This document shows, one piece after another, positions 2,072 through 54,482 of a stretch of DNA of 64,000 bases; position 1 is the stretch's first letter; each line of letters begins with the position of its first letter. This stretch comes from Polyangium mundeleinium. GTDB taxonomy: Bacteria; Myxococcota_A; Polyangia; Polyangiales; Polyangiaceae. Position numbers and translations under genes: made by a program. The notes under the pieces were generated by a model. That model was not told the DNA's origin, did not search any database, and worked only from the letters and a program-made list of their open reading frames with translations. Location: assembly GCF_028369105.1 (NCBI RefSeq), contig NZ_JAQNDO010000001.1:4618501-4682500 (forward strand), read 5' to 3'.

Positions 2072-3238
2072 CTAGACCAGGACGGCCGCATCGGCGGCGC
2101 GGGTTCGGGGTTCGTCGCGGAGCGGCCGCGCGGGTTTGCCCAGCGTGAGATCTCCGAACGAGAATGTCGGCGTGACGCCGGGGAACAGGGCGTAGGCGCT
2201 GAGCTCCGAAGAGCTGACCATGCCCGGAAAATCCGGGTTTTGCTGGGACGGCCCGGCGACCTCTTTTTCCTGCACCATCGAGATGTACTGGTCGAGCCCA
2301 CGTTCGAGCGTGTTGCCATTGAGGATGACCTCCATCCCGGTGTCCTCGGCATACCGGCGGAGCCCCGGGATCCGCGAGGCGCGCGGGGCATACGCATCGG
2401 GGCCGACGCCGTTCTCGCTCGTCACGAAGATCCCCTCGGACGTACGCACGACGATCGAATGGTTCCCCTCGGTATGGCCGGGCGTCGCCATGAGCACGAC
2501 GCTCTCGCCGAGCTTCGTGTCGCCGTCGAGCAGGACGATCCGTGAAGGATCGACGCCGTCGATCCCGCCCGGACAATACCAGTCGCGTTGCGGCGGCAGG
2601 AGCCCGAGCGTGCTCTCCCATTCCTTTCGCATGACCAGCAGCTTTGCGCGCGAAAAATAGCCGGGACGCCCGTGCGCGCCGAGCCAGCGGCGCACGTCCT
2701 GCGTGTGCATGTGATCGTAGGTGATGTAATCGATATCCTCCGGGAGAAGCCCCGCCTCGGCGAGGCAAGACTCCACCGTGCCGAGCTCGGGCGCGATGAT
2801 GCGCTGGCCGAGATCCTTGAAGGGGCCGAACATGCCGCTGAGGCGCTTGAAGAACGGCGTCTCGGCATTGGCGCGGACGTCGGAGGGCGAGGCGAGCAGG
2901 GTGCGGAGGCGACCTGGGGGTTTGGGGGCGCAGCCCGGCTCGCCGGGCGTAGCCCCCATCGTCGGAACCTCGAATTGCACGAGGAAGACGCGGTTCAGGA
3001 TGTGCACGAACGGCGTCGGGCCGCGGAAGGCGTCGCGCAGGGCATACCGCGTCGGATAAGGGACACGCACGAGCGAGCGGGAACGATAACAGGGCACCGG
3101 CGGCGCCGAGAGCAGCTCCTCGCGGAGCCTTGCGGCGCGTTTTCGCACCTCGCGCAGGCGATCCTCGGGGCGTGACGCGTCACGGGCGCCCGCAAAAACG
3201 TCGATCGGTCGGAGCACGGGATCCAAAGGTTCGCGCAT
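2072..3238 (-). CDS. Metallo-beta-lactamase-fold hydrolase
   Basis: A 388-residue protein with the MBL-fold metal site: HMHTQD (H-x-H-x-x-D) after the strand YITYD, a second His in ATPGHTEGNHS, and a SENGVGPDAY segment where the bridging Asp/Glu would lie. This fits a mononuclear or dinuclear Zn hydrolase (lactonase/glyoxalase-like); the substrate is unknown. Start 3238 is preceded by GAGGAG about 11 bases upstream. The N-terminal ~130 residues before the metal motif are longer than in a minimal MBL domain. Residues ~93-108 are encoded by a copy of the palindromic repeat described separately. The gene diverges from the DUF2330 gene at 3433. Confidence 0.78.
   Translation of the reverse strand: MREPLDPVLRPIDVFAGARDASRPEDRLREVRKRAARLREELLSAPPVPCYRSRSLVRVPYPTRYALRDAFRGPTPFVHILNRVFLVQFEVPTMGATPGEPGCAPKPPGRLRTLLASPSDVRANAETPFFKRLSGMFGPFKDLGQRIIAPELGTVESCLAEAGLLPEDIDYITYDHMHTQDVRRWLGAHGRPGYFSRAKLLVMRKEWESTLGLLPPQRDWYCPGGIDGVDPSRIVLLDGDTKLGESVVLMATPGHTEGNHSIVVRTSEGIFVTSENGVGPDAYAPRASRIPGLRRYAEDTGMEVILNGNTLERGLDQYISMVQEKEVAGPSQQNPDFPGMVSSSELSAYALFPGVTPTFSFGDLTLGKPARPLRDEPRTRAADAAVLV
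2916..2961. repeat. Palindromic element copy A, inside a coding sequence
   Basis: An imperfect palindrome with arms around GGGGGCGCAGCCCGGC and GCCGGGCGTAGCCCCC. It shares its layout (GTTTGGGGGCG, central CGGCTYGCCG, GTAGCCCCC) with copies at 22440, 34152 and 54307. It is in frame within the MBL-fold gene and encodes a Gly/Pro-rich stretch (MGATPGEPGCAPKPPG), which looks like a tolerated loop insertion. Confidence 0.75.
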
Positions 3239-3432
3239 GACAATCTCGCTCCTCGTTCGGGCCCTGACTACCACGAAGGCGCGTCGCCGAGAACCTCCAC
3301 GCAATCGTGTCAACGTGTGCCCGGATGTGCCCGAGAGGGCCGCGGGTCGGATGCCGGGATCATGCAAAACGCCGAAGGATCGGAGGGGCACGGCGCGTGC
3401 TTTCCAGCGATGGCTGCCCGGAGGTCCCACGC

Positions 3433-22408: not shown

Positions 22409-22439
22409 AGCGCCGCGCCTAGGCTGCCCTCTCCCGCGC

Positions 22440-22487
22440 GGGGCTTGGGGGCGTAACTCGGCTTGTCCGAGCGTAGCCCCCAAGCGG
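22440..22487. repeat. Palindromic element copy B, intergenic
   Basis: GGGGCTTGGGGGCGTAACTC and its inverted partner GAGCGTAGCCCCCAAGCG flank a short centre. It lies between the convergent PilZ and lipoprotein genes and may act as a bidirectional terminator stem, though no T-run follows. It has the same layout as the copies at 2916, 34152 and 54307. Confidence 0.8.
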
Positions 22488-22514
22488 TGAAAGAGGGGAT
22501 GGGGTGAAGGGTTC

Positions 22515-27355: not shown

Positions 27356-29764
27356 ATGAAGAGCACACGCGGTTCCCGCACGCGGAAGGCGCTCCTCGCG
27401 GGCCTCCTCGCGGCCTGCGCCACGCTCGTGCCGAGCTTCGCGCACGCGATTGACGCCGAGCAGGCGATCACCACCGCCACGCAGCAGATCACGATCGCCG
27501 GGAACGGCCTGCGCGCGATCGAGGACGCGATCCAGAAGTCGAAGGGCCGCGAGCGCACGCCGGCGCAGCGCATCGCCGACGCCGTGCTCCTCGTGGGATC
27601 GAGGGACTGGGATCGCGCGGCGACGCTGCTGAACGAGATCATCGAGAAATACCCCGATCACCCGACCGCGTACCCCGACGCGCTTTCGCTCCTCGGCGAG
27701 ACGTACTTCCAGTCTCGGCAGTATCTCTCGGCGCGGCGCGTCTACTTCAAGATCACCGAGCGCGTGCAAGAGCCGCGCTTCTTGACCTACCAGGGCAAGG
27801 CGCTCGAGCGGCTCGTCGACATCGCGCTGCGGACGAAGGACTACCGGCACCTCGACGACGTCTTCGCCGCGATGAACCGCCTCCCGCCCGCGGCCGTGAC
27901 GAGCGGAATTTCGTATGCACGCGGCAAAGGCCTCGTCGTGAAGAAGGACTGGGCGGGCGCGAAGGCGGCGCTCGCGTCGGTCGATCTGAAGAGCGAGTAC
28001 GCGCATCAAGCCGGCTACCTGCTCGGTGTCGTGGCCGTGAAGGAGGCGACGCCGCCGCCGGTTCCGCTCGCCGAGGGCGAGGTGCCGCCGCGCGCGCCGC
28101 GGAGCCGCTACGTCGCGGCGATCGATCAATTCCGCAAGGTCACGCAGCTCGCTCCCGACTCGAAGGATCACGAGCGGGTGATCGACATGGCGTGGCTCGC
28201 GATCGGGCGACTCTTCTACGAGTCGGATCAGTGGGCGCAGGCCGTGGATGCGTACAACCACATCGACCGATCGTCACCGGAGTTCGGGACGATGCTCTAC
28301 GAGCTCGGCTGGGTGTACGTCCGGCTCGGCGACGTCGAACGCGCGCAACGGGCCCTCGAGGTCCTCTCCGTTGCCGACCCGAATAGCCAGAACATCGCGG
28401 ACGGCTCGTTGCTTCGCGCGGACCTCATGCTTCGCGCGGGCCAGTTCGAAAAGTCGCTCAAGGTCTACGAGGGCGTCCGCGCGAACTACGATCCGATGCG
28501 CGCGCGTGTCGACGCGTTCCTCGGCGCGACCAGCGATCCAGCCGTCTACTACGACAAGCTGAGCCAGGAGCAGCTCGACGTCCTCGACTCGAGCTCCGGC
28601 CTGCCCACGCTGGCGATCCAGTGGGCGCGCGACGCGGAGGACGGCCCTGCCGCGTTCGCCGTGATCGAGGGCATCGCGCAGTGCCGCGAGCTCATCCAGC
28701 AATCGAACGATCTCATCGAGAAGCTGAACGCGGTCGTGGCCTCGACGAACCGCGTCCGCGCGTTCCCCGAGCTCAAGGCGGGCGAGGAGAAGGCGCTCGG
28801 ACTCATCAACCGCGTGGGCATCGCGCGGCTCTCGATCGGGCAGGGGATGGACGAGGTCGAGTCCTCGTCGCTCTCCGGCGAGATCGGGCAGGTACGCGCG
28901 CGCCGCCGCTCGCTGGAGAAGCGGCTCGGGATGATCCCCGTCAACGACGGGGACTTCCAAGAGCGCGAGGGGCAGGCGCTCAAGCAGTGGAACGGCGCAT
29001 CGCAGTCGGTGCAGCGCATGACGCTGGAAGTGGACTCGCTCCAGGCGCAGGTGAACGGCCTGCGGCGCATGTTGCGCGAGGCGCCGCAGGCGGGCGTCGT
29101 GCGCGATCCGGCGGCGGTCGCGCGGTTCGAGCAGGAGCTCGCCGCGCACGAGCGTGATCTCGTGGCCTACCGCAAGCACATCACGGATCTGCGCAAGCTC
29201 GTGGGCGCCGGCAAGATGCAGGTCGGCTTTGGCGATCAGCGCTTCATCGAGGACGCGCAGGTGCGGCAGGCGTACCGCGAGGCGATCGTGCGGGAGGTCC
29301 AGCTCGCGATGGCGGGGCAGGGGGGCGCGTCGCTCGCCGCTTACGCGAAGCGTGTCGCGCCGCTCCTGCAAAAGGGCGACGAGACGGACGCGAAGGTCTT
29401 CGCCGCGCTCTCCGAGCTCGAGCGTGAGGTCGCGCGGAGGACGACGGACGTGCGGGCGATCCTGGCGCGCGAGACGGCCGCGGTGGTGGGGTACGAGGTG
29501 GAGCTCGAGCGGCTCGACAAGGAGGCGCGCGGCGTCGTGGGCGAGGTGGCCATGCGGAACTTCGGCCTCGTGCGCGACCGGCTGCGGAGCATCGTCCTGC
29601 GCGCGGACGTGGGCATCACCGAGGAGGCGTGGGAGGTGCGCGAGGAGCAGATGACCCGCGTGCGCAGCCTGCGCGTCGAGCGAGCGCGCGAGGAGAAGCT
29701 CTTGCGGGAGGAGCTCGATGAGGTCCTCGACGACAGCGCCGCGCCCGGGACGGAGGGCAAATGA
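27356..29764 (+). CDS. Periplasmic TPR protein
   Basis: An 802-residue protein with signal peptide MKSTRGSRTRKALLAGLLAACATLVPSFAHA. The N-terminal ~450 residues are TPR-like helical repeats, for example RDWDRAATLLNEIIEKYPDH, DALSLLGETYFQSRQYLSAR and MLYELGWVYVRLGDVERAQR. The C-terminal ~350 residues are long helices likely to form coiled coils (RRRSLEKRLGMIP, VDSLQAQVNGLRRML, ELEREVARRTTDVRAIL, REEQMTRVRSLRVERAREEK). It is probably a scaffold in the periplasm. It overlaps the next TPR gene by 4 bp (ATGA), indicating coupled translation. I cannot assign a one-to-one Myxococcus homologue. Confidence 0.8.
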   Translation: MKSTRGSRTRKALLAGLLAACATLVPSFAHAIDAEQAITTATQQITIAGNGLRAIEDAIQKSKGRERTPAQRIADAVLLVGSRDWDRAATLLNEIIEKYPDHPTAYPDALSLLGETYFQSRQYLSARRVYFKITERVQEPRFLTYQGKALERLVDIALRTKDYRHLDDVFAAMNRLPPAAVTSGISYARGKGLVVKKDWAGAKAALASVDLKSEYAHQAGYLLGVVAVKEATPPPVPLAEGEVPPRAPRSRYVAAIDQFRKVTQLAPDSKDHERVIDMAWLAIGRLFYESDQWAQAVDAYNHIDRSSPEFGTMLYELGWVYVRLGDVERAQRALEVLSVADPNSQNIADGSLLRADLMLRAGQFEKSLKVYEGVRANYDPMRARVDAFLGATSDPAVYYDKLSQEQLDVLDSSSGLPTLAIQWARDAEDGPAAFAVIEGIAQCRELIQQSNDLIEKLNAVVASTNRVRAFPELKAGEEKALGLINRVGIARLSIGQGMDEVESSSLSGEIGQVRARRRSLEKRLGMIPVNDGDFQEREGQALKQWNGASQSVQRMTLEVDSLQAQVNGLRRMLREAPQAGVVRDPAAVARFEQELAAHERDLVAYRKHITDLRKLVGAGKMQVGFGDQRFIEDAQVRQAYREAIVREVQLAMAGQGGASLAAYAKRVAPLLQKGDETDAKVFAALSELEREVARRTTDVRAILARETAAVVGYEVELERLDKEARGVVGEVAMRNFGLVRDRLRSIVLRADVGITEEAWEVREEQMTRVRSLRVERAREEKLLREELDEVLDDSAAPGTEGK

Positions 29765-32700
29765 GCGTGCTTCGTCGTTCCTCGTCGCGGTCGGGACGCG
29801 GCGCGTCGTCGATCCTCGCGCTCCTCGTCGCGACGTGCGTCGCGGGCAGCGCTGCGTCGCAGCCGCAGCCCTTTCCGCCGACAGCAGCGCCCACGGCGCC
29901 GACGACCGCACCACCGACGGCAGCGCCCACGGTACTGCCGGGCGCGATGCCCACGGCGCCTCCGGGCGCGATCCCAACGGCGCCCCCGGGCGCAGCACCT
30001 CCGACCGCAGCTCCGACGGCGTCCGCGAGCGCGCCGCCCATCCCGCCGCCCACGCCCGCGTTCAAGCCGCGCGTGCAGGCGCCTCCGCCGCCGCCTCCCA
30101 CGCCCGAGCAGGTCGCGGTGCTCGCGGAGCTCGAGAAAGAGGCCGTAGCGTACGAGCAGGCCGCGCGCGATTACCGCTCGTCGATCACGCGGATCATCCA
30201 GCAGCACTACGAAGAGCGCAGGCGTCGTGTCATCGCCGCCCTCGATCGCGAGATCGACGTCGAGCAGAAGGACCTGAAGTCGGCGCGCGAGGAGGCGATC
30301 CGCCGCCTCGAAAAGTTCGTCGAGACGTACAGCGGCAGGAACGCGCACCCCGAGAGCACGCCCACGGCGATGTTCCGCCTCGCGGCGCTCTACGAGGAGC
30401 GCGCCCGCGAGGACACCGATCTCTCCGACGATCTCGCGATCGGCCTCCGGCCCGCGATCGCCCTCTACAAGCGCATCATCCGCGAGTTCCCGCAGTACAA
30501 GGAGCTCGCCGGCGTCTACTACTACCTCGGCCACGCGCTGAACGATTCGGCGCGGATCTTCGAGGCGCAGCAGGTCTTCCGATCGTTCGTCTGCCACGAC
30601 CGCTACCCGTACCCCGTTCCTACGGATCCGAAGGATCCGACGCGGGACACGGTCGGCAAGCTCCCGCAGGATCACGATCGCGACTACTGGCTCGGCTGGG
30701 AGTCACGGCACCCGATCCCCATCGGCGAGGCCGCGAAACGCAAGGCCGCGCAGCCGCCGCCCAAGAAGACGAACGCCAAGGGCAAGGGGAAGGGGAAGGA
30801 GCCGGAGCCCGAGCCGGAAGCGCCGGCGATCGAGGACGAGCTCGTCTTCGTCAACCCGTACCCCGATGGCTGCAAGCCGATCCCGCAGAAAGTCGCGGAG
30901 GGCGCGGAGCCGCGGTACCTCGCCGAGGTCTGGTGGCTCATCGGCGACTACCACTTCAACGAGATCGATCCGGGCGGCGGGCCCTTCAGCCTGAACCGCG
31001 CCGAGGTCGCATACACGCGATCACTCCAGTACAAGAAGCCGCCCGTCTACGGCGTCGCGATGTACAAGCTCGCGTGGACGTACTTCAAGCAGCTCCGCTA
31101 CGAGACGAGCGTCCGGCAGTTCGTCGAGCTGCTCAAGTACACCGACGAACAGGAAAAACTCACGGGTGATCCGGGCACGGATTTCCGCGGCGAGTCGTAC
31201 ACGTACATCGCCGGCGCGCTCACGTTCCTCGACTTCACGGGGCCCGCCGCGGATGAGCCCTTCGTCCCGCGCAGCGACATCCTCGACCTCGAGCAGGATC
31301 CGCGGATCCGTGAGCAGAAGATGCGGATCGCGATCGACCGCGTGCAGAACGCGGCGCTCATCCCGCAGGATCGCAAGTGGACCGTGGAGATCTACAAAGC
31401 GCTCGCGGCCGAGTTCAAGGAGCTGAACCAGTATCGGAACACGATCGAGGTCTCGGAGCTCATCCTCAAGAAGTGGCCCACGCACCGCGACGCGCCGGTC
31501 ATGCAGGCGCAGATCGCGGACATCTACGACACGCTCACCGGGCAGTCGCGCGAGGGGACGGCCGAGCGCGCGGAGAACGCGGCGAAGGCCCTCGACGCGC
31601 GCACGAAGCTCGCGAACTACGTCGGCAAGACGCCGTGGGTCGAGGCGAACAAGGACGATCCGGAGGCCATTCAGACCGCCGAGCGCCTCGTGCGTGGCGG
31701 CCTGCGTCGCGCCGCGGCTGATCACACGAACGCGGGCAGCGCGCTCGTGAACGCGGCGATCCAGAGCGGCGAGCAGGAGACGCGCACCAAGCTCTTCGAA
31801 CGCGCGCTCTCCGAGTACCGCATGGCCGCGCTCGGCTGGCAGGGCGTCCTGCAGGAAGACGAGAACGCGCCCGACGCCTACGACAGCCGCTACTGGCTCG
31901 CCGACGCGAACCACATGGTCCTCGTGATCCAGGTGGCGATGGATCGCTCGCCGACAGTCGACGAGATCGAGACCGCGCGGCGCACCGCCATCGACGTCCG
32001 CGACTCGAACGAGGACGACAAGCACCTGCAGCCCGCCGCGTTCATGGTCGTCGACACCGCGTACCAAGCGCTGCTCGACCAGTACAAGCTCTACAAGCGC
32101 ACGGGCGGGCAAGAGGGGATCGAGCAGCGGACGGGGCTCAAGATCGTCACGGAGAACGACAAGCAGAAGGTCGCCGTCGAGGAGCTGCCGAAGGTCATCA
32201 AGGACGCAGTCGCGGCGCGCGACGAGTACATCCAGCGCGTGCCTCCGGCGAGTGATCTCTCGACGCGGGATCCGCAGACGAACCAGGACCAGAAGAACAG
32301 CGATCTCTACGCCTACCAGTCCGCGGAGTTCTTCTTCCTGTACGGCAACTTCGCCGAGGCGCGACGCAGGCTCGAGCCGATCTACGCCGAGCAGTGCAGC
32401 AAGACGCCGTTCGGTTACCTCGCGTGGGAAAAACTCACGACGATGGCGAACCTCGAGAACGACGTGCCGCGCTCGCGCGCGCTCGCCGAGGCCGCGATGA
32501 CGAAGAGCTGCGCCATCAGCGAGGAGCAGAAGCTCAAGGAGACAGGCATCGCCCAGCCCACGATCTCGCGCGGCTACTACGTCGACGCCGCGGCGAAGTT
32601 CGAGAAGGCCGAGAAGATGCCCGACGGGCCGGAGCGCGTGCAGGCGTGGCGCGAGGCGGCGGCGCTTTACCGCGTGGCGCTCGAAAAGGCCCCGGCGCGG

Positions 32701-34140
32701 GACGAGGCGCCGGAGGCCGCGATGAACGGCGCGTACTGCTACAAGCAGGTCGGCGACTACGACCAGGCCATCGAGATGTATGCGCTCTTCATCAAGGAGT
32801 ACGGGAGCGATGCAAACCTCTCGAAGCTGGAGAAGGGCGACGATGCCAGCAAGCCCCCGAAGCCCGCGGATCCGAAGCGCTACGCCGAGCGCGTGAAGTA
32901 CCTGAAGCAGGCCTACGACGCGCTCAGCGCGGCATACGTGCTCTTCTTCAACTACCGCGCCGCGGCCGAGACGTACGACACGATCTCGCGCAACGGCCGC
33001 TTCGAGAAACCCGCCCGGCGCGAGGCGGCCCGGGGCGCGGTCCTCCTTTACGCAAACGTGGGCGAGCGCGACCGCATGATCGCCTCACGCAACGCGTTCC
33101 TGAACCTCGATGCCCCGGTCGAGCAGAAGGCCGAGATCGACTACATCGTCGCGTCCGCCGACCTCAAGGCGTGGGACGAGAAGGGCCTCGACGAAGGCGC
33201 GAACAAGGCCGCGCGCGTCAAGGCCATGGACGCGATGGAGAACTACTACGAGATGAACCGCCTCACGCCGGCGGCCACGCCGTTCCTCGTCCAGGCGGCC
33301 TTCCACGCGGCGAAGATGCGCAAGGCGGCCGGGGATCCAAAGGCGTTCGAGTGGTGCCGCAACACCATCGGCGCCTTCGACAAGTTCAAGGCGTTCGCCG
33401 CGATGGACAACAAGAAGGCGCTCGGCACGATGCAGGCCGACATGGCCGCCGAGTGCGCGTACGGCGTGATCAACGACAAGCTCCGGCAGTCCTGGGACTA
33501 CGACGCCGGCCACCATCGCTACGCAGGCGTCATCGACAAGGTCATCAAGACGTACTCCGACGACCTCAAGAAGGCGGGCGACACGCACTTCAACGACCTG
33601 CAGTCCGTGATCAAGACGTACGAGTCGCGCGCCCTGTCCGTCGCGGCGTTCGCGCGGCAAGGCTCGCTCTACGACTCGTGCCGCACGGGCCTCTACAACA
33701 CGCGCCCGCCGGGCCTGAAGCTCTACACCGATCGCGAGGAGAAGCTCCTGAAGCTCGCCGAGACGAGCGATCGCGAGGACTTGCAGGAGACCGCGGACGC
33801 CATCCGCCAGAAGCGTCGCGAGCAGTGGCGCGAGGCGCGCGAGCGGCTCCTCAACGATGCCGACCGCGCCATGATCAAGTTCTACGTGCAGGCCGTGGTC
33901 TACGCGCGCGCGTGGAACGTGCGAAACCCCGAGGTCGACCACGCGATTCAAAGGCTCGCGTTCTTCACCGACATCCTTGGCGACGCGAAGATCCGCGACA
34001 TGAGCCAGGGGATCATCGATCCCGAGACGGGACAGCCGTTCCAGTACCAGGACGGCATGTTCCTGCGCACGCGGCCCGGCATGGCGCCCGCGCTGCAGCC
34101 CGACGGCCTGCCCGCGCCGCTCCCGGTGACGCTGCCATGA
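29761..34140 (+). CDS. Very large TPR protein, GltD/AgmU-like by position
   Basis: A 1459-residue exported protein. After a signal-peptide-like N-terminus (SSILALLVATCVAGSAASQ) lies a ~90-residue Pro/Thr/Ala tract (PTAPPGAIPTAPPGAAPPTA). The rest is long arrays of TPR-like helices, e.g. YKRIIREFPQYKELAGVYYY, GVAMYKLAWTYFKQLRYETS and AAMNGAYCYKQVGDYDQAIE. In Myxococcus xanthus the gliding gene gltD (agmU) encodes a long TPR protein followed by the TPR lipoprotein gene gltE (aglT); the same order and overlap occur here, so a GltD-like role is a reasonable inference. It is coupled to both neighbours by ATGA overlaps. A Lys-rich insert (KKTNAKGKGKGKEPEPEPE) at ~340 is unusual. Confidence 0.8.
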   Translation: MSVLRRSSSRSGRGASSILALLVATCVAGSAASQPQPFPPTAAPTAPTTAPPTAAPTVLPGAMPTAPPGAIPTAPPGAAPPTAAPTASASAPPIPPPTPAFKPRVQAPPPPPPTPEQVAVLAELEKEAVAYEQAARDYRSSITRIIQQHYEERRRRVIAALDREIDVEQKDLKSAREEAIRRLEKFVETYSGRNAHPESTPTAMFRLAALYEERAREDTDLSDDLAIGLRPAIALYKRIIREFPQYKELAGVYYYLGHALNDSARIFEAQQVFRSFVCHDRYPYPVPTDPKDPTRDTVGKLPQDHDRDYWLGWESRHPIPIGEAAKRKAAQPPPKKTNAKGKGKGKEPEPEPEAPAIEDELVFVNPYPDGCKPIPQKVAEGAEPRYLAEVWWLIGDYHFNEIDPGGGPFSLNRAEVAYTRSLQYKKPPVYGVAMYKLAWTYFKQLRYETSVRQFVELLKYTDEQEKLTGDPGTDFRGESYTYIAGALTFLDFTGPAADEPFVPRSDILDLEQDPRIREQKMRIAIDRVQNAALIPQDRKWTVEIYKALAAEFKELNQYRNTIEVSELILKKWPTHRDAPVMQAQIADIYDTLTGQSREGTAERAENAAKALDARTKLANYVGKTPWVEANKDDPEAIQTAERLVRGGLRRAAADHTNAGSALVNAAIQSGEQETRTKLFERALSEYRMAALGWQGVLQEDENAPDAYDSRYWLADANHMVLVIQVAMDRSPTVDEIETARRTAIDVRDSNEDDKHLQPAAFMVVDTAYQALLDQYKLYKRTGGQEGIEQRTGLKIVTENDKQKVAVEELPKVIKDAVAARDEYIQRVPPASDLSTRDPQTNQDQKNSDLYAYQSAEFFFLYGNFAEARRRLEPIYAEQCSKTPFGYLAWEKLTTMANLENDVPRSRALAEAAMTKSCAISEEQKLKETGIAQPTISRGYYVDAAAKFEKAEKMPDGPERVQAWREAAALYRVALEKAPARDEAPEAAMNGAYCYKQVGDYDQAIEMYALFIKEYGSDANLSKLEKGDDASKPPKPADPKRYAERVKYLKQAYDALSAAYVLFFNYRAAAETYDTISRNGRFEKPARREAARGAVLLYANVGERDRMIASRNAFLNLDAPVEQKAEIDYIVASADLKAWDEKGLDEGANKAARVKAMDAMENYYEMNRLTPAATPFLVQAAFHAAKMRKAAGDPKAFEWCRNTIGAFDKFKAFAAMDNKKALGTMQADMAAECAYGVINDKLRQSWDYDAGHHRYAGVIDKVIKTYSDDLKKAGDTHFNDLQSVIKTYESRALSVAAFARQGSLYDSCRTGLYNTRPPGLKLYTDREEKLLKLAETSDREDLQETADAIRQKRREQWREARERLLNDADRAMIKFYVQAVVYARAWNVRNPEVDHAIQRLAFFTDILGDAKIRDMSQGIIDPETGQPFQYQDGMFLRTRPGMAPALQPDGLPAPLPVTLP

Positions 34141-35768
34141 AACTCTTCCTACGCTTGGGGGCTACACTCCGACGAGCGGAGCTACGCCCCCAAACCCCCG
34201 CGATCCCCCCGGCCCTCGTCGTGCTCGCGTGCGCGTTCGTGCCGCTCCTCGCGGCCTCCTGCGAGGAGACGACCTCGCAGAAGCCGCAGACGCCGCCGCA
34301 ACCTTCAGCCGCGTACCCGAATGGCCCGAACGGGATGAACCCGTGGGGGCAGCCCGCGCCGATCGTGGGCATGAGCCCCACGCCGAGCCTCACGCCGAGC
34401 GCGCCGCCGACGCTCACGACCCCGCCGCCGACGCCCCCGCCCGCGCCGCTCCCGCCCGCCGCGTCCGGGCCTTACCAGCAAGGCATGGCCGCGTTTGCCG
34501 CGGGGGATCTCACGGCGGCGAAGGGCCTCTTCCAGCAGGTCATCCAGGCCGACGCGCGCGCCCCCCACGCGCACTACTCGCTCGGCGCCGTGCAGGAGCG
34601 CCTGCGCGAGCCCGACGCTGCGGCGAGCTACCAGAAGGCGCTCTCCATCACGCCCGACTACGAGCCCGCGATCATCGCCTACGCGATGCTGCTCGCGCGG
34701 AAGGGCAACCTCGGCGAGGCCGAACGTCTGCTCACGGAAAAGCGCGCCATCATGCCGCGATCGGCGGCCGTCACGGCCACGCTCGCCGAGGTAAAGAGCC
34801 TGCAGAAGGACACCGGATCGGCGCAACGCCTCGCCCAGGAGGCGCTCAAGATCAACCCGGATTACCGGCCCGCGATGGTCGTGATCGCCCGCGATCATTA
34901 CCGCAACCGCAGGCTCGATCTCGCGCTCTACGCGCTGCAGGCGATCCTCGACGGGTTCGGCGCGGACAACCCTCCGCGCGACAAGGAGAACCCCGAGGCG
35001 CTGCTCTTGCGGGGCCTCATCCTGCGCGAGCAATCCCAGCGCGCGGGCGCCATGGACAACTTCCGCCGCGCCGTGCAACGCAGGCCTGATCTCGTCGAGG
35101 CGCGTGTGCAGCTTGCCTCGATGCTGCTCGAAGCCGGCAACGGTCAGGAGGCGCTCCCGCTCCTCGAAGGCGCGGTCCGCTACGACGGCGACAACCTCCC
35201 CGCGCACCTCGCGCTCGGCGACACGTACCGCTTGCTCGGCCGGTACGGCGACGCGAAGCGCGAGTTCGAGTGGGTGCTCGCGCGAGACGCATCGATGCCG
35301 CAGGTCCACTACGACCTCGGCCTCTTGTACCTCTTCGCGCCGAGCGTCCCCGGCATGTCGGCCAAGCAGCAGGTCGCCGAGGCGATCGTCGAGCTGAAGA
35401 AGTACCAGGAGCTCCGGCGCAAAGGAGAGCGCGACGACTCCGAGGAGCTCCTGCAGCGCGCGAAGCTCAAGGAAGGCGAGCTCGCCGCCGCGGCCGCTGC
35501 CGAGGCGCCCGCGCCCGTCGCACCCCTCCCGAGCACGCCGAGCACCGAGGATGCCGGCGCCCCGGACGCCGCTGCGCCCCCGCCGAGCCCGCCGCCCGCG
35601 AGCTCCGCGGCCCCGCCGCCTGCGCCTTCGGACAGCTCCGCCGCGCCTGCGCCGCCGCCCGCCGCGCCTGCGCCCCCGCCCGAGCCGCCGCCCGCCGCGC
35701 CTGCGCCTGCGCCCACGCCGACCAGCACCATCGTCGCGCCGTTCTCCACACCACCCCCGGGCATCTAG
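34137..35768 (+). CDS. TPR lipoprotein, GltE/AglT-like
   Basis: A 543-residue lipoprotein with TPR repeats. The mature N-terminus is predicted after LLAAS at the Cys of SCEETTSQ (residue 42), late for a lipoprotein because residues ~6-21 come from an inserted palindrome. TPR units run from ~115 to ~410, e.g. YQQGMAAFAAGDLTAAKGLF, PHAHYSLGAVQERLREPDAA and DNLPAHLALGDTYRLLGRYG. The last ~80 residues are Ala/Pro/Ser-rich. Its position after the large TPR gene and before the AgmX/PglI-tail protein matches gltE (aglT) of the Myxococcus gliding cluster, so a periplasmic or outer-membrane role is likely. ATG 34137 overlaps the upstream stop by 4 bp. Confidence 0.82.
   Translation: MKLFLRLGATLRRAELRPQTPAIPPALVVLACAFVPLLAASCEETTSQKPQTPPQPSAAYPNGPNGMNPWGQPAPIVGMSPTPSLTPSAPPTLTTPPPTPPPAPLPPAASGPYQQGMAAFAAGDLTAAKGLFQQVIQADARAPHAHYSLGAVQERLREPDAAASYQKALSITPDYEPAIIAYAMLLARKGNLGEAERLLTEKRAIMPRSAAVTATLAEVKSLQKDTGSAQRLAQEALKINPDYRPAMVVIARDHYRNRRLDLALYALQAILDGFGADNPPRDKENPEALLLRGLILREQSQRAGAMDNFRRAVQRRPDLVEARVQLASMLLEAGNGQEALPLLEGAVRYDGDNLPAHLALGDTYRLLGRYGDAKREFEWVLARDASMPQVHYDLGLLYLFAPSVPGMSAKQQVAEAIVELKKYQELRRKGERDDSEELLQRAKLKEGELAAAAAAEAPAPVAPLPSTPSTEDAGAPDAAAPPPSPPPASSAAPPPAPSDSSAAPAPPPAAPAPPPEPPPAAPAPAPTPTSTIVAPFSTPPPGI
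34152..34200. repeat. Palindromic element copy C, inside the signal peptide of the TPR lipoprotein
   Basis: CGCTTGGGGGCTACACTC and its partner GAGCTACGCCCCCAAAC flank a short centre, matching the reverse complement of the family pattern. It lies at codons 6-21 of the TPR lipoprotein and adds LRLGATLRRAELRPQTP to the signal peptide's N-region without breaking the frame. Confidence 0.85.
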
Positions 35769-41095: not shown

Positions 41096-41992
41096 TCAGT
41101 GCTTGCGGGACAGGCGGAAGTGGCGCTTGCCCGTGGCGGGATCGGTCGTCGGCGCCTCGATCTTGAGCATGCCGAGCGCGACCTCGCGCACGCGACTGTC
41201 CTTCTCCTGCCGCAGCCGGATGCGCTCGCCGTCGGAGCTGATGATCTCGCACTCGCCGAAGTGGAAGTGGTTCACGAGGTCCCCCGTGTCCGGGTAGATC
41301 TCGACGTCATCGCGGTGCTGCGTCGGCCGCGTGAGCGGCGTCGGCGCCGTCGGGAGATCGGTCGGCGCGGCCGGCGCGGTCGCAGGGAACGGGGAGGGCG
41401 CGCGCGGCGACTCCGGGTGCGTGATGCGCGGGGCGGGCGCCGCGGTGCGCGCAGGAACAGGGGCAGGGGAAGTCGCCTGCGGTTGCGGTTGCGGTTGCGG
41501 TTGCGGTTGCGCCTGCGGTTGCGCCTGCGGTTGCGCCTGCGGTTGCGGTTGCGCCTGCGGTTGCGCCGAGGCGGCCGCGGTGAAGGAGCGATCGTCGCCC
41601 TGCCGCACGAGCGCGACGTCGTCGAGCGCGGTCGCGAAGATCTCGAGCGAGAGCGCGCGCGCCGAGACGATCTCACCGGCGACCGTCTGGAGGCCGAACG
41701 GGCTCTCCTGCACGAGCGTGGCATAGAGCCGCACGCTCACGGCCGCGCCCTCCTGCGCGATGTTGCCCGTGATCGAGACAGCCATCACCGGCGCTTCGAT
41801 CCGCCGCGTCACGCGCGCGCCTTCCGCGTCGACGCTCGCGAGCTCGACGCTGTCGAGCACGCCCGTTCCCGATAGTCGGCCAGCCCTGGCAGACGCCTCT
41901 TCGAGCGCGCGGGCCAGCCCGCGCGGTACTTCCTCGCCATTCTCGGCCCTGATGACCAGATGGCGAATCCCCCTCGATTCGACGACGTTCAT
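41096..41992 (-). CDS. PPC/DUF296-domain protein with repeat linker and C-terminal beta domain
   Basis: A 298-residue protein. Residues ~1-130 match the PPC (DUF296) fold: RHLVIRAENGEEVPRGLARA, GVLDSVELASVDAEGA, PVMAVSITGNIAQEGAAVS and AGEIVSARALSLEIF. In bacteria this fold is a small trimeric domain of unclear role; in plants it joins an AT-hook DNA-binding segment. A ~90-residue linker follows, starting with a perfect Gln/Pro/Ala repeat (QPQAQPQ units) encoded by a hexanucleotide array. The C-terminal ~55 residues (GDLVNHFHFGECEIISSDGE, RIRLRQEKDSRVREVALGM) form another small domain, also found alone in myxobacteria. It overlaps the OmpA gene by 3 bp and follows it. Confidence 0.78.
   Translation of the reverse strand: MNVVESRGIRHLVIRAENGEEVPRGLARALEEASARAGRLSGTGVLDSVELASVDAEGARVTRRIEAPVMAVSITGNIAQEGAAVSVRLYATLVQESPFGLQTVAGEIVSARALSLEIFATALDDVALVRQGDDRSFTAAASAQPQAQPQPQAQPQAQPQAQPQPQPQPQPQATSPAPVPARTAAPAPRITHPESPRAPSPFPATAPAAPTDLPTAPTPLTRPTQHRDDVEIYPDTGDLVNHFHFGECEIISSDGERIRLRQEKDSRVREVALGMLKIEAPTTDPATGKRHFRLSRKH
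41475..41567 (-). repeat. Hexanucleotide repeat array in the PPC-domain gene
   Basis: Repeated GCGGTT and GCGCCT hexamers (reading GCCTGCGGTTGCG...) about 90 bp long, encoding Gln-Pro/Gln-Ala pairs. Length change by slippage would keep the frame and only alter linker length. Confidence 0.85.
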
Positions 41993-43983
41993 CTACGCTT
42001 TCCTCGTTTGTCCCGCTGCACCGTGATCTCGAACTGCGGCACGTTTGCAGCGCGCTTTTCCCCCGGATCCCCCGTCGCCGCCGTGATGCGATCCGCCGGC
42101 AGACCGGCGGCCACGAGCGCGTCCTTCACCGCGATCGCGCGCTTCTCGGCGAGCCCGAGGGCCTTCGGCGACTCGTCGCCGGTGCGGTCGGCATACCCCT
42201 CGATGACGATCGTGGCGATCGGAGCGCGGCCCGCGGCGAGCTGCGCCATCTGCCGCAGCATCTCCTCCATCGGCTTGGCCACGTCTGCCTTGCCCGGGGT
42301 GAACCGCGCCGGCGTCTCCGCGACGATGCGATCGCCCGACCAGCGCACGAGCGACTTCGCGCCCGCCTCGGGGCAGCCGTCTGCGTCGTCCTTGCCGTCG
42401 ATCGTCTCGGCCTGGAGCGGGCACTTGTCCGCCTTGTCGGCGATGCCGTCCTCGTCGTTGTCGATCTCGGGGCAACCGTCGTCGTCCTGGAAGCCGTCGA
42501 GATCCTCGCGCGCGTCGGGGCACTGATCGGCCGCGTCGAGGACCTGATCGAGATCGTTGTCGGGATCGGGGCAGCCGTCGTCGTCCTTGAAGCCGTCCTT
42601 GTCCTCGGCGCCGTTCGGGCAACGATCGACCTTGTCGAGCAGCCCGTCTCCGTCGTTGTCGGGATCGGGGCAGCCGTCGTCGTCCTCGAAGCCGTCCTTG
42701 TCCTCGGCCTCGTTGCGGCACGCGTCGACCTCGTCGAGCACGCCGTCCTCGTCGTCGTCGGGATCGGGGCAGCCGTCGTCGTCCTTGAAGCCGTCGACGG
42801 TCTCGGCCGCGTCGCGGCACCGGTCCTGCGTGTCGGGGATGCGATCGTTGTCGTTGTCGGGATCGGGGCAGCCGTCGCCGTCCTGGAAGCCGTCACGATC
42901 CTCGGCGACCTTCACGCACTTGTCGTCGCGGTCGAGCACGCCGTCGCCGTCGACGTCGCGGCCCGTGGGCGCGTAGCGCGCGGCGAGGCCGAAGCGGAAG
43001 CGCGGCGTCGTCACCGCGGCCTCGGACGAGAAGGGGATCGGGCCGCCGCCGGAGATCGTGAAGGACATGTCGCCGCCGAGGATCGGCGCCGTCGTCGCCG
43101 AGAGGATCCACTCCGCGGGCACGAACGCGGGGCTCACGGGCTCTTCGACCGTGCGCGCGGGCGGGTTCTGCGCGGCGAAGTTGTACAAGACGAACGCCTC
43201 GCCGGCCGCGGTGAGCCAGCCGTCTTGCAGGATGTCGAACGACGCGCCGAGCGAGCCGCCGAGCTGCGAGCCGATGCGCGCGTTCGCCAGGCGCGCCTCG
43301 CCGCGGACGCGCGCGCTCGCCTCGACGCCGGCCTCGAAGCGGCCGCGGCGGTAGGACGCGACGATCGAAGGGAACCACGTGATCGTCCGGCCGCTCGCGA
43401 ACGCCTGGGCGTCGCCCGCGGGCACGGCGAGCTCGAAGCGACCGACGACGCTCGCGCCGTCGGCGCTGCCTGCGCGAGGCCGAGGCAGGATCGAGGCGGC
43501 GAAGCCGAAGCGCACATCGCGCATCGAGCTCCGCGGCAGCTCCTCGTCGCTCGCCGTCGCCACGCCGAGGCCGGTGCCGTCTTGGTAGAACGTGATCGGC
43601 AATGCGGCCGTGATCTCGAGCCGATCGTGCACGCCGAGCGACCACAGGAAGGTCGCGTTCACGGCGTTGTCGATGACGGGGACGATGGTCCCATCGGGAT
43701 CCGCCGACGCGACGCGCAGCCCGATCGGCCGCGACAGGTAGCTCAGCGCGAGCCCGAACGAGGCCTTGCCGGAGGGCGCGAGGAGGGGCGCGCCGAGCGA
43801 GAGGAACGGCCCTGCGCCGGCGTGCACCCAGAGGTTGTCGGCGTTGATGCAGCCGCTCCGCTCGGCCTTCGGATCACACTGCGCGTGGGCTTCCTCGGGC
43901 ACGAGCAAAAGCGTGGAGGCGGCCGCGAGCAGCGAGCCGAACAAGCGAAGGCGGTGGGGCTTCTGGGCAGGAAGGAATGTCAT
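41989..43983 (-). CDS. OmpA-family protein with thrombospondin type 3 repeats
   Basis: A 664-residue outer-membrane protein. Signal peptide MTFLPAQKPHRLRL...EEAHA is followed by an N-terminal barrel of ~290 residues (FGLALSYLSRPIGLRVAS, RLEITAALPITFYQDG, VVGRFELAVPAGDAQAF). Six calcium-binding thrombospondin type 3 repeats of 33 residues come next (DGFKDDDGCPDPDNDxD pattern). The OmpA C-terminal peptidoglycan-binding domain closes it (ARFTPGKADVAKPMEEML, VIEGYADRTGDESPKALGL, EKRAIAVKDALVAAGLPADR, FEITVQRDKRG), with the D and R that contact meso-diaminopimelate. It anchors the outer membrane to the cell wall. Its start faces the maf gene. Confidence 0.92.
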   Translation of the reverse strand: MTFLPAQKPHRLRLFGSLLAAASTLLLVPEEAHAQCDPKAERSGCINADNLWVHAGAGPFLSLGAPLLAPSGKASFGLALSYLSRPIGLRVASADPDGTIVPVIDNAVNATFLWSLGVHDRLEITAALPITFYQDGTGLGVATASDEELPRSSMRDVRFGFAASILPRPRAGSADGASVVGRFELAVPAGDAQAFASGRTITWFPSIVASYRRGRFEAGVEASARVRGEARLANARIGSQLGGSLGASFDILQDGWLTAAGEAFVLYNFAAQNPPARTVEEPVSPAFVPAEWILSATTAPILGGDMSFTISGGGPIPFSSEAAVTTPRFRFGLAARYAPTGRDVDGDGVLDRDDKCVKVAEDRDGFQDGDGCPDPDNDNDRIPDTQDRCRDAAETVDGFKDDDGCPDPDDDEDGVLDEVDACRNEAEDKDGFEDDDGCPDPDNDGDGLLDKVDRCPNGAEDKDGFKDDDGCPDPDNDLDQVLDAADQCPDAREDLDGFQDDDGCPEIDNDEDGIADKADKCPLQAETIDGKDDADGCPEAGAKSLVRWSGDRIVAETPARFTPGKADVAKPMEEMLRQMAQLAAGRAPIATIVIEGYADRTGDESPKALGLAEKRAIAVKDALVAAGLPADRITAATGDPGEKRAANVPQFEITVQRDKRGKRR
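42367..42957 (-). repeat. Six 99 bp TSP3 repeats
   Basis: Six tandem units of 99 bp encode the 33-residue Asp-rich calcium-binding repeats of the OmpA protein. The units share GATCCGGGCAGCCGTCGTCG-type segments. They are coding repeats, not a CRISPR array. Confidence 0.88.
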
Positions 43984-54294: not shown

Positions 54295-54306
54295 GGGGGC
54301 TTCCCG

Positions 54307-54430
54307 GGCGCAGCCCCAAGCGTAGATGGGGTTTGGGGCGTAGCTCGGCTTGCCGAGCGTAGCCCCAAGCGTAGATGGGGTTTGGGGCGTAGCTCGGCTT
54401 GCCGAGCGTAGCCCCAAGCGTAGACAGGTT
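54307..54430. repeat. Palindromic element copies D, 49 bp tandem
   Basis: Two full copies of a 49 bp unit (54321-54369 and 54370-54418), identical over nearly their length, preceded by a partial one and followed by a diverged start (TAGACAGG). Each unit carries GTTTGGGGCGTAGCTCGG and its inverted partner CCGAGCGTAGCCCCAAG, as in the copies at 2916, 22440 and 34152. Confidence 0.88.
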
Positions 54431-54482
54431 TGTCTAGGACAACGCGAGACGGGCCGCCTCGAAGCTGGTAGCATCGCCTCCG

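Follow-up and report, generated by a model that had tools for sequence, protein, structure and literature searches.

An in-frame copy of a short palindromic repeat in the signal peptide of a Polyangium TPR lipoprotein, with further copies inside many other genes

In-frame palindromic insertions in genes are best known from Rickettsia, whose small, decaying intracellular genome could explain why they are tolerated. These Rickettsia elements (RPEs) are said to have been worked on by Ogata et al. in 2000 and 2002. RPEs are described as palindromic repeats of approximately 100 to 150 bp inserted in frame in Rickettsia genes (PMC10969869, PMC2229807, PMC3767692), and the RPE-bearing genes tabulated for R. 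japonica include those for a tRNA ribosyltransferase-isomerase (QueA) and for penicillin-binding protein 1C (PMC3767692, Table 1). RPE-4 and RPE-6 have been placed among the CGTC-REPs, a group described as being without a dedicated transposase, with a stem of 8 or 9 bp, A-T pairs at the first and second position and a loop of 4 to 5 nt (Di Nocera et al. 2013, PMC3733652). GTAG-REPs, according to the same account, carry an unpaired GTAG at one end, belong with a RAYT transposase (REPtrons) and include intragenic copies, and MITEs are given there as 70 to 300 bp long (PMC3733652); they have terminal inverted repeats and often a target duplication. Intragenic in-frame copies are also described for Correia/NEMIS, ERIC and YPAL elements, among them a YPAL copy in a predicted signal peptide (PMC2229807). 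Judged by titles and the beginnings of abstracts, none of the papers found by searching an open-licence collection describes such an element for Myxococcota, and the terms Sorangium, myxo and delta are absent from the main text of PMC3733652.

The window analysed here (the whole stretch of 64,000 nt of Polyangium mundeleinium DNA) contains several copies of a short palindromic element (Table 1). One of these, copy C, is an in-frame insertion in the gene of a TPR lipoprotein and a member of a repeat family that recurs in many other genes. A covariance model of the family (R1) matches copy C on the minus strand with 73.9 bits, copy C itself being one of the 26 copies used to train the model. An ungapped weight matrix built from 21 copies, all outside the window, gives 71.2 bits for copy C and 60.6 bits for copy B, while copies A and D, which are one base shorter, stay below 12 bits with this ungapped matrix. 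Among 60 random Markov-1 windows of equal size none scored above 1.5 bits, which rules out a chance palindrome, and a known RNA family was ruled out by the absence of any Rfam match above the gathering score in the window. Within the window, copy C is an inverted match to positions 22440-22495 (84% over 56 nt) and 2916-2946 (87% over 31 nt).

Table 1. Features of the lipoprotein locus and further copies of the element in the 64,000-nt window
Feature	Position in window	Strand	Basis
Copy C, palindromic element	34150..34200	(-)	Covariance model R1 match and weight matrix
TPR lipoprotein gene, 543 aa	34137..35768	(+)	Pfam TPR families; orthologues in 5/5 other same-genus genomes
Insertion of 54 nt (18 codons) compared with empty relatives	34144..34197, approximate	(+)	Alignment with G001-G005
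Codon of Cys42 (Cys24 in G001), taken as the lipobox cysteine	34260..34262	(+)	Sequence and alignment
Upstream gene, 1459 aa, stop overlaps lipoprotein start	29761..34140	(+)	Open reading frame
Copy A, in frame inside a gene	2915..2964	(+)	48-nt gap there in G001, G002 and G005
Gene holding copy A	ORF 2075-3430	(-)	No Pfam match at 1e-8
Copy B, intergenic	22438..22488	(+)	G005 empty; G001, G002 and G004 with unrelated longer inserts
Array D, about three tandem units of about 49 nt	54296..54444	(+)	Non-coding context (coding score)

The lipoprotein ATG at 34137 overlaps the stop codon of the upstream gene (ATGA), for whose product no Pfam match was found at E values up to 0.001. Read in the opposite orientation, copy C forms residues L5-RLGATLRRAELRPQTP-A22 of the lipoprotein. 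The earlier note on this DNA had placed the element at codons 6 to 21 with the in-frame translation MKLFLRLGATLRRAELRPQTPAIPPALVVLACAFVPLLAASC; the R1 match bears out the location and the translation the reading, but the extent is larger, codons 5 to 22 (R1 match 34150-34200). Likewise, the n-region is not about 15 but 18 residues (54 nt) longer than in G001 to G004, with the ends of the insertion uncertain by several nucleotides because the flanking bases have diverged. All 18 codons stand ahead of the hydrophobic core, so that the signal peptide has 41 residues compared with 23 to 25 in same-genus relatives, and according to a simple hydropathy rule its n-region carries a charge of +4 compared with +2 to +3. 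The core and the cysteine are still present by the same rule and by alignment, as the note had stated for core and lipobox. Cys42 is taken to be the lipobox cysteine on the basis of the motif.

Orthologues of the lipoprotein gene were found in all five other same-genus genomes (G001 to G005), and none of them has the repeat at this site. All five start with the overlapping ATGA and encode a short signal, MKRSP.LVF.ALAC.LVPL.A..C in G001 to G004 and MTRVVRFHPALFALTCALVPLALAAC in G005. A scan of named genomes yielded 28 orthologue loci, in none of which a search with R1 found a copy. The N-terminus was read at 12 of these loci (four Polyangium, one Minicystis, five Sorangium including one MAG, one Byssovorax MAG and one delta-proteobacterial MAG), and each has the short signal and an ATGA start; the four Polyangium records probably duplicate the same-genus set, and eight loci lie outside the genus. 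At all five same-genus loci and at 11 of the 12 loci read, the ATGA shares bases with the stop codon of a long ORF upstream, the sole exception being the Minicystis locus (L241). The expectation in the earlier note that close relatives lack the insert and start with a shorter signal thus agrees with all N-termini read, and a long N-terminus shared with relatives was seen neither in the five same-genus genomes nor at the eight loci outside the genus. That the long N-terminus is ancestral and was later lost by the relatives is refuted on these data and has next to no probability left: the element is missing in the five same-genus genomes and in the eight orthologues outside the genus, and what has been added belongs to a repeat that is present at 92 other sites.

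Many REPs at annotated N-termini elsewhere have been argued, in the account of PMC3733652, to be extragenic, with the true start located downstream. If this applied to copy C, the element would lie in a 5' leader and the protein would lack it. For the lipoprotein we consider this very unlikely. The only in-frame candidates for a later start are TTG at codon 7, which lies within the element, and GTG at codons 29 and 35. A start at either GTG would place no more than 13 residues ahead of the cysteine and provide no positively charged n-region, and the overlap of the ATGA with the upstream stop is shared by P. mundeleinium with the relatives listed above. In addition, a second lipoprotein-like gene of the same genome (L003:1434-1600; C1 about 563,900) has the same arrangement, with the element directly after the first codons and in frame. 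This gene reads MRHLTLGGSARASRATPPNPQHAARLGLISAALLAAC, and its counterparts in G001, G002 and G004, all of them empty, read MRL.SARLGLVSAALLVAAC. Judging by these two cases, which are too few for a statistic, lipoprotein signals seem to offer the element a permissive landing site in their n-region.

The bases adjoining copy C diverge from G001 more than the remaining gene does, and those right after it (CCGGCCCTC, 34190-34230) are nearer to G005 than to the otherwise closest G001. A small recombination event is possible because of this difference between the flanks and the gene; it would have carried in the element and the diverged neighbouring bases as a short tract from another lineage. The better fit of CCGGCCCTC to G005, in a gene that overall fits G001 best, is what such a tract would leave behind. 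However, no genome was seen with the element at this site, G005 itself is empty, and we regard an origin of this kind as quite improbable. As a separate difference, at 34270-34290, shortly past the lipobox, the five relatives each contain one more CAG (Gln) codon than the TPR gene of P. mundeleinium.

Very probably, copy C represents a single insertion of an approximately 51-nt Polyangium hairpin repeat, non-autonomous, probably selfish and of the REP/RPE kind. The insertion would have occurred just past the lipoprotein start after the lineage had split from that of the nearest sampled relative. It would be tolerated because it adds a whole number of codons, the strand that is read is free of stop codons, and the permissive n-region takes up the extra polar, positively charged residues; the extended signal peptide should still work.

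It is also conceivable that the element has been kept because it is useful, with the coding sequence or an RNA hairpin tuning expression or export of the lipoprotein; the earlier note had suggested that export or expression of the gene may be altered. Two lipoproteins, the copy C gene and L003, carry the element right after the start codon, and in the copy C gene an RNA hairpin is predicted to begin approximately 19 nt into the message (z-score -2.25). The predicted folding evidence for copy C is mixed: the first 70 coding nucleotides are predicted to be more stable than in the five relatives (-25.1 compared with -20.2 to -24.2 kcal/mol), but the initiation region from -30 to +20 is predicted to be less stable (-8.6 compared with -10.4 to -12.0 kcal/mol), and from -30 to +70 the predicted folding falls inside the range of the relatives. 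Moreover, the gene insertions of the family are scattered across unrelated genes. We consider a beneficial role unlikely and would rather read copy C as a nearly neutral passenger of the lipoprotein gene.

The alignment of 26 copies gives the consensus GGGGGTTTGGGGGCGTAGCTCGGCTCGTCCGAGCGTAGCCCCCAAGCGT, followed by a weak tail. An outer helix of 8 bp (TTGGGGGC/GCCCCCAA) encloses approximately 23 nt, which hold a second helix of 6 bp, and both-sided changes that keep the pairing occur at six of the 14 base pairs among these copies. Of 69 matches to the model, 47 have a length of exactly 51 nt (the 69 count a few places twice and comprise 62 distinct sequences). The ends of the element are GGGGGTTTGGGGGC and GCCCCCAAGCGT; at 72 single-copy sites the element is sharply bounded on the left and, on the right, tapers off across approximately 13 nt past AGCCCC, beyond which there is no clear base preference. 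Three copies (L009:1494-1543, L114:1481-1528, L107:1506-1558) match R1 on both strands, and the one at L009 is a nearly perfect palindrome.

In the soil bacterium Polyangium, all six genomes searched carry the element in large numbers; elsewhere among the genomes sampled it is rare. The genome of P. mundeleinium contains at least 104 copies at 93 sites (R1, E up to 1e-5). At E up to 0.001, the counts for G000 to G005, with 150 candidates scored per genome, are at least 123, 137, 106, 106, 125 and 54 copies, respectively. Apart from this genome, none of 37 genomes in a sample of the order carries the element according to R1. In a sample of the family, many copies were found in this genome and in G005; 37 of 39 genomes from other genera had none, and the remaining two had three and one weak matches, respectively, under stricter filters.

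With respect to mobility, no match to the Y1 transposase family (Y1_Tnp, PF01797) was obtained in the P. mundeleinium genome, G002 and G003, and there was one match each in G001 and G004 and two in G005, in a search that matched five of 14 known genomes used as a control. All six genomes carry many copies of the element regardless of the presence of PF01797, and a RAYT-driven REP was rejected because no Y1 transposase was found in the P. mundeleinium genome itself. Target-site duplication was rejected as well, since k-mers shared by both ends are at random level: a common 5-mer was present at 27 of 85 sites compared with 23.6 expected (sd 4.0), and 4-, 5-, 6- and 7-mers showed no excess over random pairing at these sites. 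A transposase or a single-strand (hairpin) process might move the element without leaving a detectable target duplication. At the end of one gene (L123:1500-1583), G001 has just GGGGCTTGGGGGC, which corresponds to the first bases of the element there and may be either a coincidental match at the target or what a deletion left behind.

At least 23 genes, including queA, rsmH and a prmA-like gene, have a copy of the element inside them or at their end; five of these (L287, L290, L291, L296, L311) are counted from the phase test described below alone, without relatives. The frame is kept in these genes, in line with the proposal of the earlier note that the element may enter a gene without breaking it. 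Among the first 58 sites, nine are open through the element and coding on both sides and 13 are coding on one side, as judged by a home-made score. Twelve genes were picked from the 58 sites by open frame and gene-like translation, and relatives were obtained by searching with the joined flanks followed by DNA alignment. Each of the 12 genes has an empty counterpart in one or more relatives, from which it differs by a multiple of three, locally 48 to 54 nt, with extra in-frame gaps in some of them (60 at L101 in G003). Several insertions are shared: that in queA with G001 and G002, those in L013, an EamA gene (L108), a GpsA-like gene (L030) and L101 with G001, and that in a DUF2062 gene (L001) with G002. 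Of the 18 gene insertions compared, 11 occur in the P. mundeleinium genome alone among the relatives examined, and movement of the element has therefore been recent.

QueA and RsmH with the insert exceed the curated NCBIfam cut-offs, QueA matches 1wdi, 1yy3 and 1vky in a PDB search, and the models for PBP1C, PrmA, YoaA/DinG and GpsA match with the insert, although below the NCBIfam cut-offs. Pfam matches above the cut-offs were obtained for DUF2062, DUF1385, EamA, PrmA, MraW (RsmH), protein kinases, Lhr winged-helix domains and a lyase; at 1e-8 there was no Pfam match for the copy A gene, L003, L123 and L287. The product of L013 matches DNA polymerase IV weakly, and ImuB-like is a name that we have assumed for it.

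In net length against empty relatives, 18 of 18 gene insertions (ten of 51 nt, six of 54 nt and two of 48 nt) are multiples of three compared with six of 11 intergenic ones (Fisher p=0.004), where the former proportion is biased upwards because 13 of the 18 (the 12 aligned genes and copy A) had been picked for an open frame, and the intergenic comparison is small. Besides these 13 the set includes copy C, L003, L015, L123 and L097, the last four of which likewise had an open frame in the initial 58-site scan. The intergenic lengths, measured against the first-listed empty relative, are 51, 48, 51, 51, 42 and 54 for the multiples of three and 49, 53, 53, 52 and 49 for the others. Measurement against a second relative gave 53 for L014, 35 to 38 for L009, and 53 for both L127 and L107; use of the second-listed relative would turn L014 and L009 into non-multiples of three and widen the contrast. 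The 11 intergenic filled/empty pairs come from 22 further sites picked by hand; of the others, four (L003, L015, L097, L123) proved to be within a gene or at a gene end, and seven are without a clean empty relative (L007, L017, L018, L102, L105, L122, L124).

A phase test that involves no selection for frame is less biased than the net lengths, although it uses a home-made coding score. At 17 of the 93 sites the sequence to either side of the element is coding and free of stops on one and the same strand, and at 12 of these 17 the flanks are in phase without a stop between them. In the other five, the stop of the upstream gene precedes the element (L026, L307, L011) or the element is at gene ends (L124 and L304, the latter out of phase). 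Five of 25 copies from the relatives pass the same filter, and all five are in phase; one of them (L079) has internal stops and is probably intergenic, one (L073) is the orthologue of L001, and by their sequence the remaining three genes look like those of a tRNA synthetase and two dehydrogenases. The length of the insertion is thus near 51 nt but variable, and the genes seen retain only insertions that keep the frame. The copies in genes would be what remains once frame-breaking insertions have been lost.

It could also be argued that the element is itself adapted to life inside genes, as it usually spans 17 codons, with all three frames of one strand open; we hold this to be possible but somewhat doubtful. 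On its reverse strand the consensus has no stop codon in any frame, and one of its forward frames is open; the reverse strand is read in 13 of the 18 genes. The five genes read in the forward direction (L030, L103, L104, L123, L097) use the two frames that a TAG closes in the consensus; in each of these genes the codon is CAG, AAG or GAG instead. Loss of the TAG was dropped as a sign of adaptation; it is weak evidence because these two frames are often open anyway (in 30 and 41 of the 69 copies) and because the gene copies had been called by their open frame.

At the intergenic site of copy B (22440 region), the inserts of G001, G002 and G004 contain another palindromic repeat, with GAACTGCGC...GCGCAGTTC and GGGGTCCGGGGCAG-type blocks; P. 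mundeleinium and G005 are without these GAACTGCGC/GGGGTCCGGGGCAG-type inserts. Tandem arrays with units of approximately 49 to 54 nt vary in copy number between species: array D has fewer units in G001 and none was seen in G002, G004 and G005, the array at L007 amounts to a single unit in P. mundeleinium and to four in G001, and that at L122 has two here, three in G001 and one each in G002 and G004. The window also contains, at 42368-42958 and 41462-41577, four 99-nt tandem repeats and an array of a 12-nt repeat, which lie outside the element family.

If the element were adapted to life inside genes, it would be a codon-sized, gene-compatible selfish cassette that is still spreading in a large free-living genome, and short peptides would continually be added to working enzymes and signal peptides. 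The carrier genes now code for fragments of what is probably a selfish repeat. Sites differ between sister species, and filled and empty alleles of the same conserved genes therefore exist, for example of queA and of GpsA-like, YoaA/DinG-like and DNA polymerase Y-like genes. These could serve as natural before/after pairs for the effect of a 17-residue selfish insert on an enzyme or a signal peptide, and Polyangium would be a system in which to seek the missing mobiliser of such repeats.

The element resembles known repeat families in different respects, and it is classed neither as an RPE nor as a RAYT-REP because it differs from them in length, loop, tag or host. Like the GTAG-REPs as described, it is a short high-copy hairpin with complementary changes in the stem and some intragenic copies; in contrast, its GTAG is found in the internal loop, on both sides, it has GGGGG at one end and a weak AAGCGT tail at the other, and its genome is without a match to PF01797. 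With MITEs it has in common that a non-autonomous repeat is able to fuse in frame with genes (PMC2229807, by its description), yet at approximately 51 nt it is shorter than the range given for MITEs, and target duplication was not detected at 85 sites (compare PMC3733652). With the CGTC-REPs, according to their published description, there are parallels: the 8-bp stem opens with two A-T pairs, some copies are intragenic, and a dedicated transposase is not known for either. However, the Polyangium loop of approximately 23 nt with its own 6-bp hairpin contrasts with 4 to 5 nt, and the tail is weakly conserved and does not clearly read CGTC (C 57%, G 61% and T 46%, then no clear base, with C at 19%, in one register from which copies deviate by one base). 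Compared with RPEs as described, the element is shorter (approximately 51 nt compared with 100 to 150 nt), its host is a free-living myxobacterium with a 13-Mb genome, and it has moved recently, with 11 of 18 gene insertions in one genome alone. As in Rickettsia, a palindromic repeat is found in frame within many unrelated conserved genes, all 18 gene insertions compared being multiples of three, and queA and a PBP1C-like gene, both named in the table for R. japonica (PMC3767692), are struck in Polyangium too. The element works in the manner of RPEs and intragenic REPs, and the same phenomenon is seen here in a free-living bacterium with a genome of 13 Mb.
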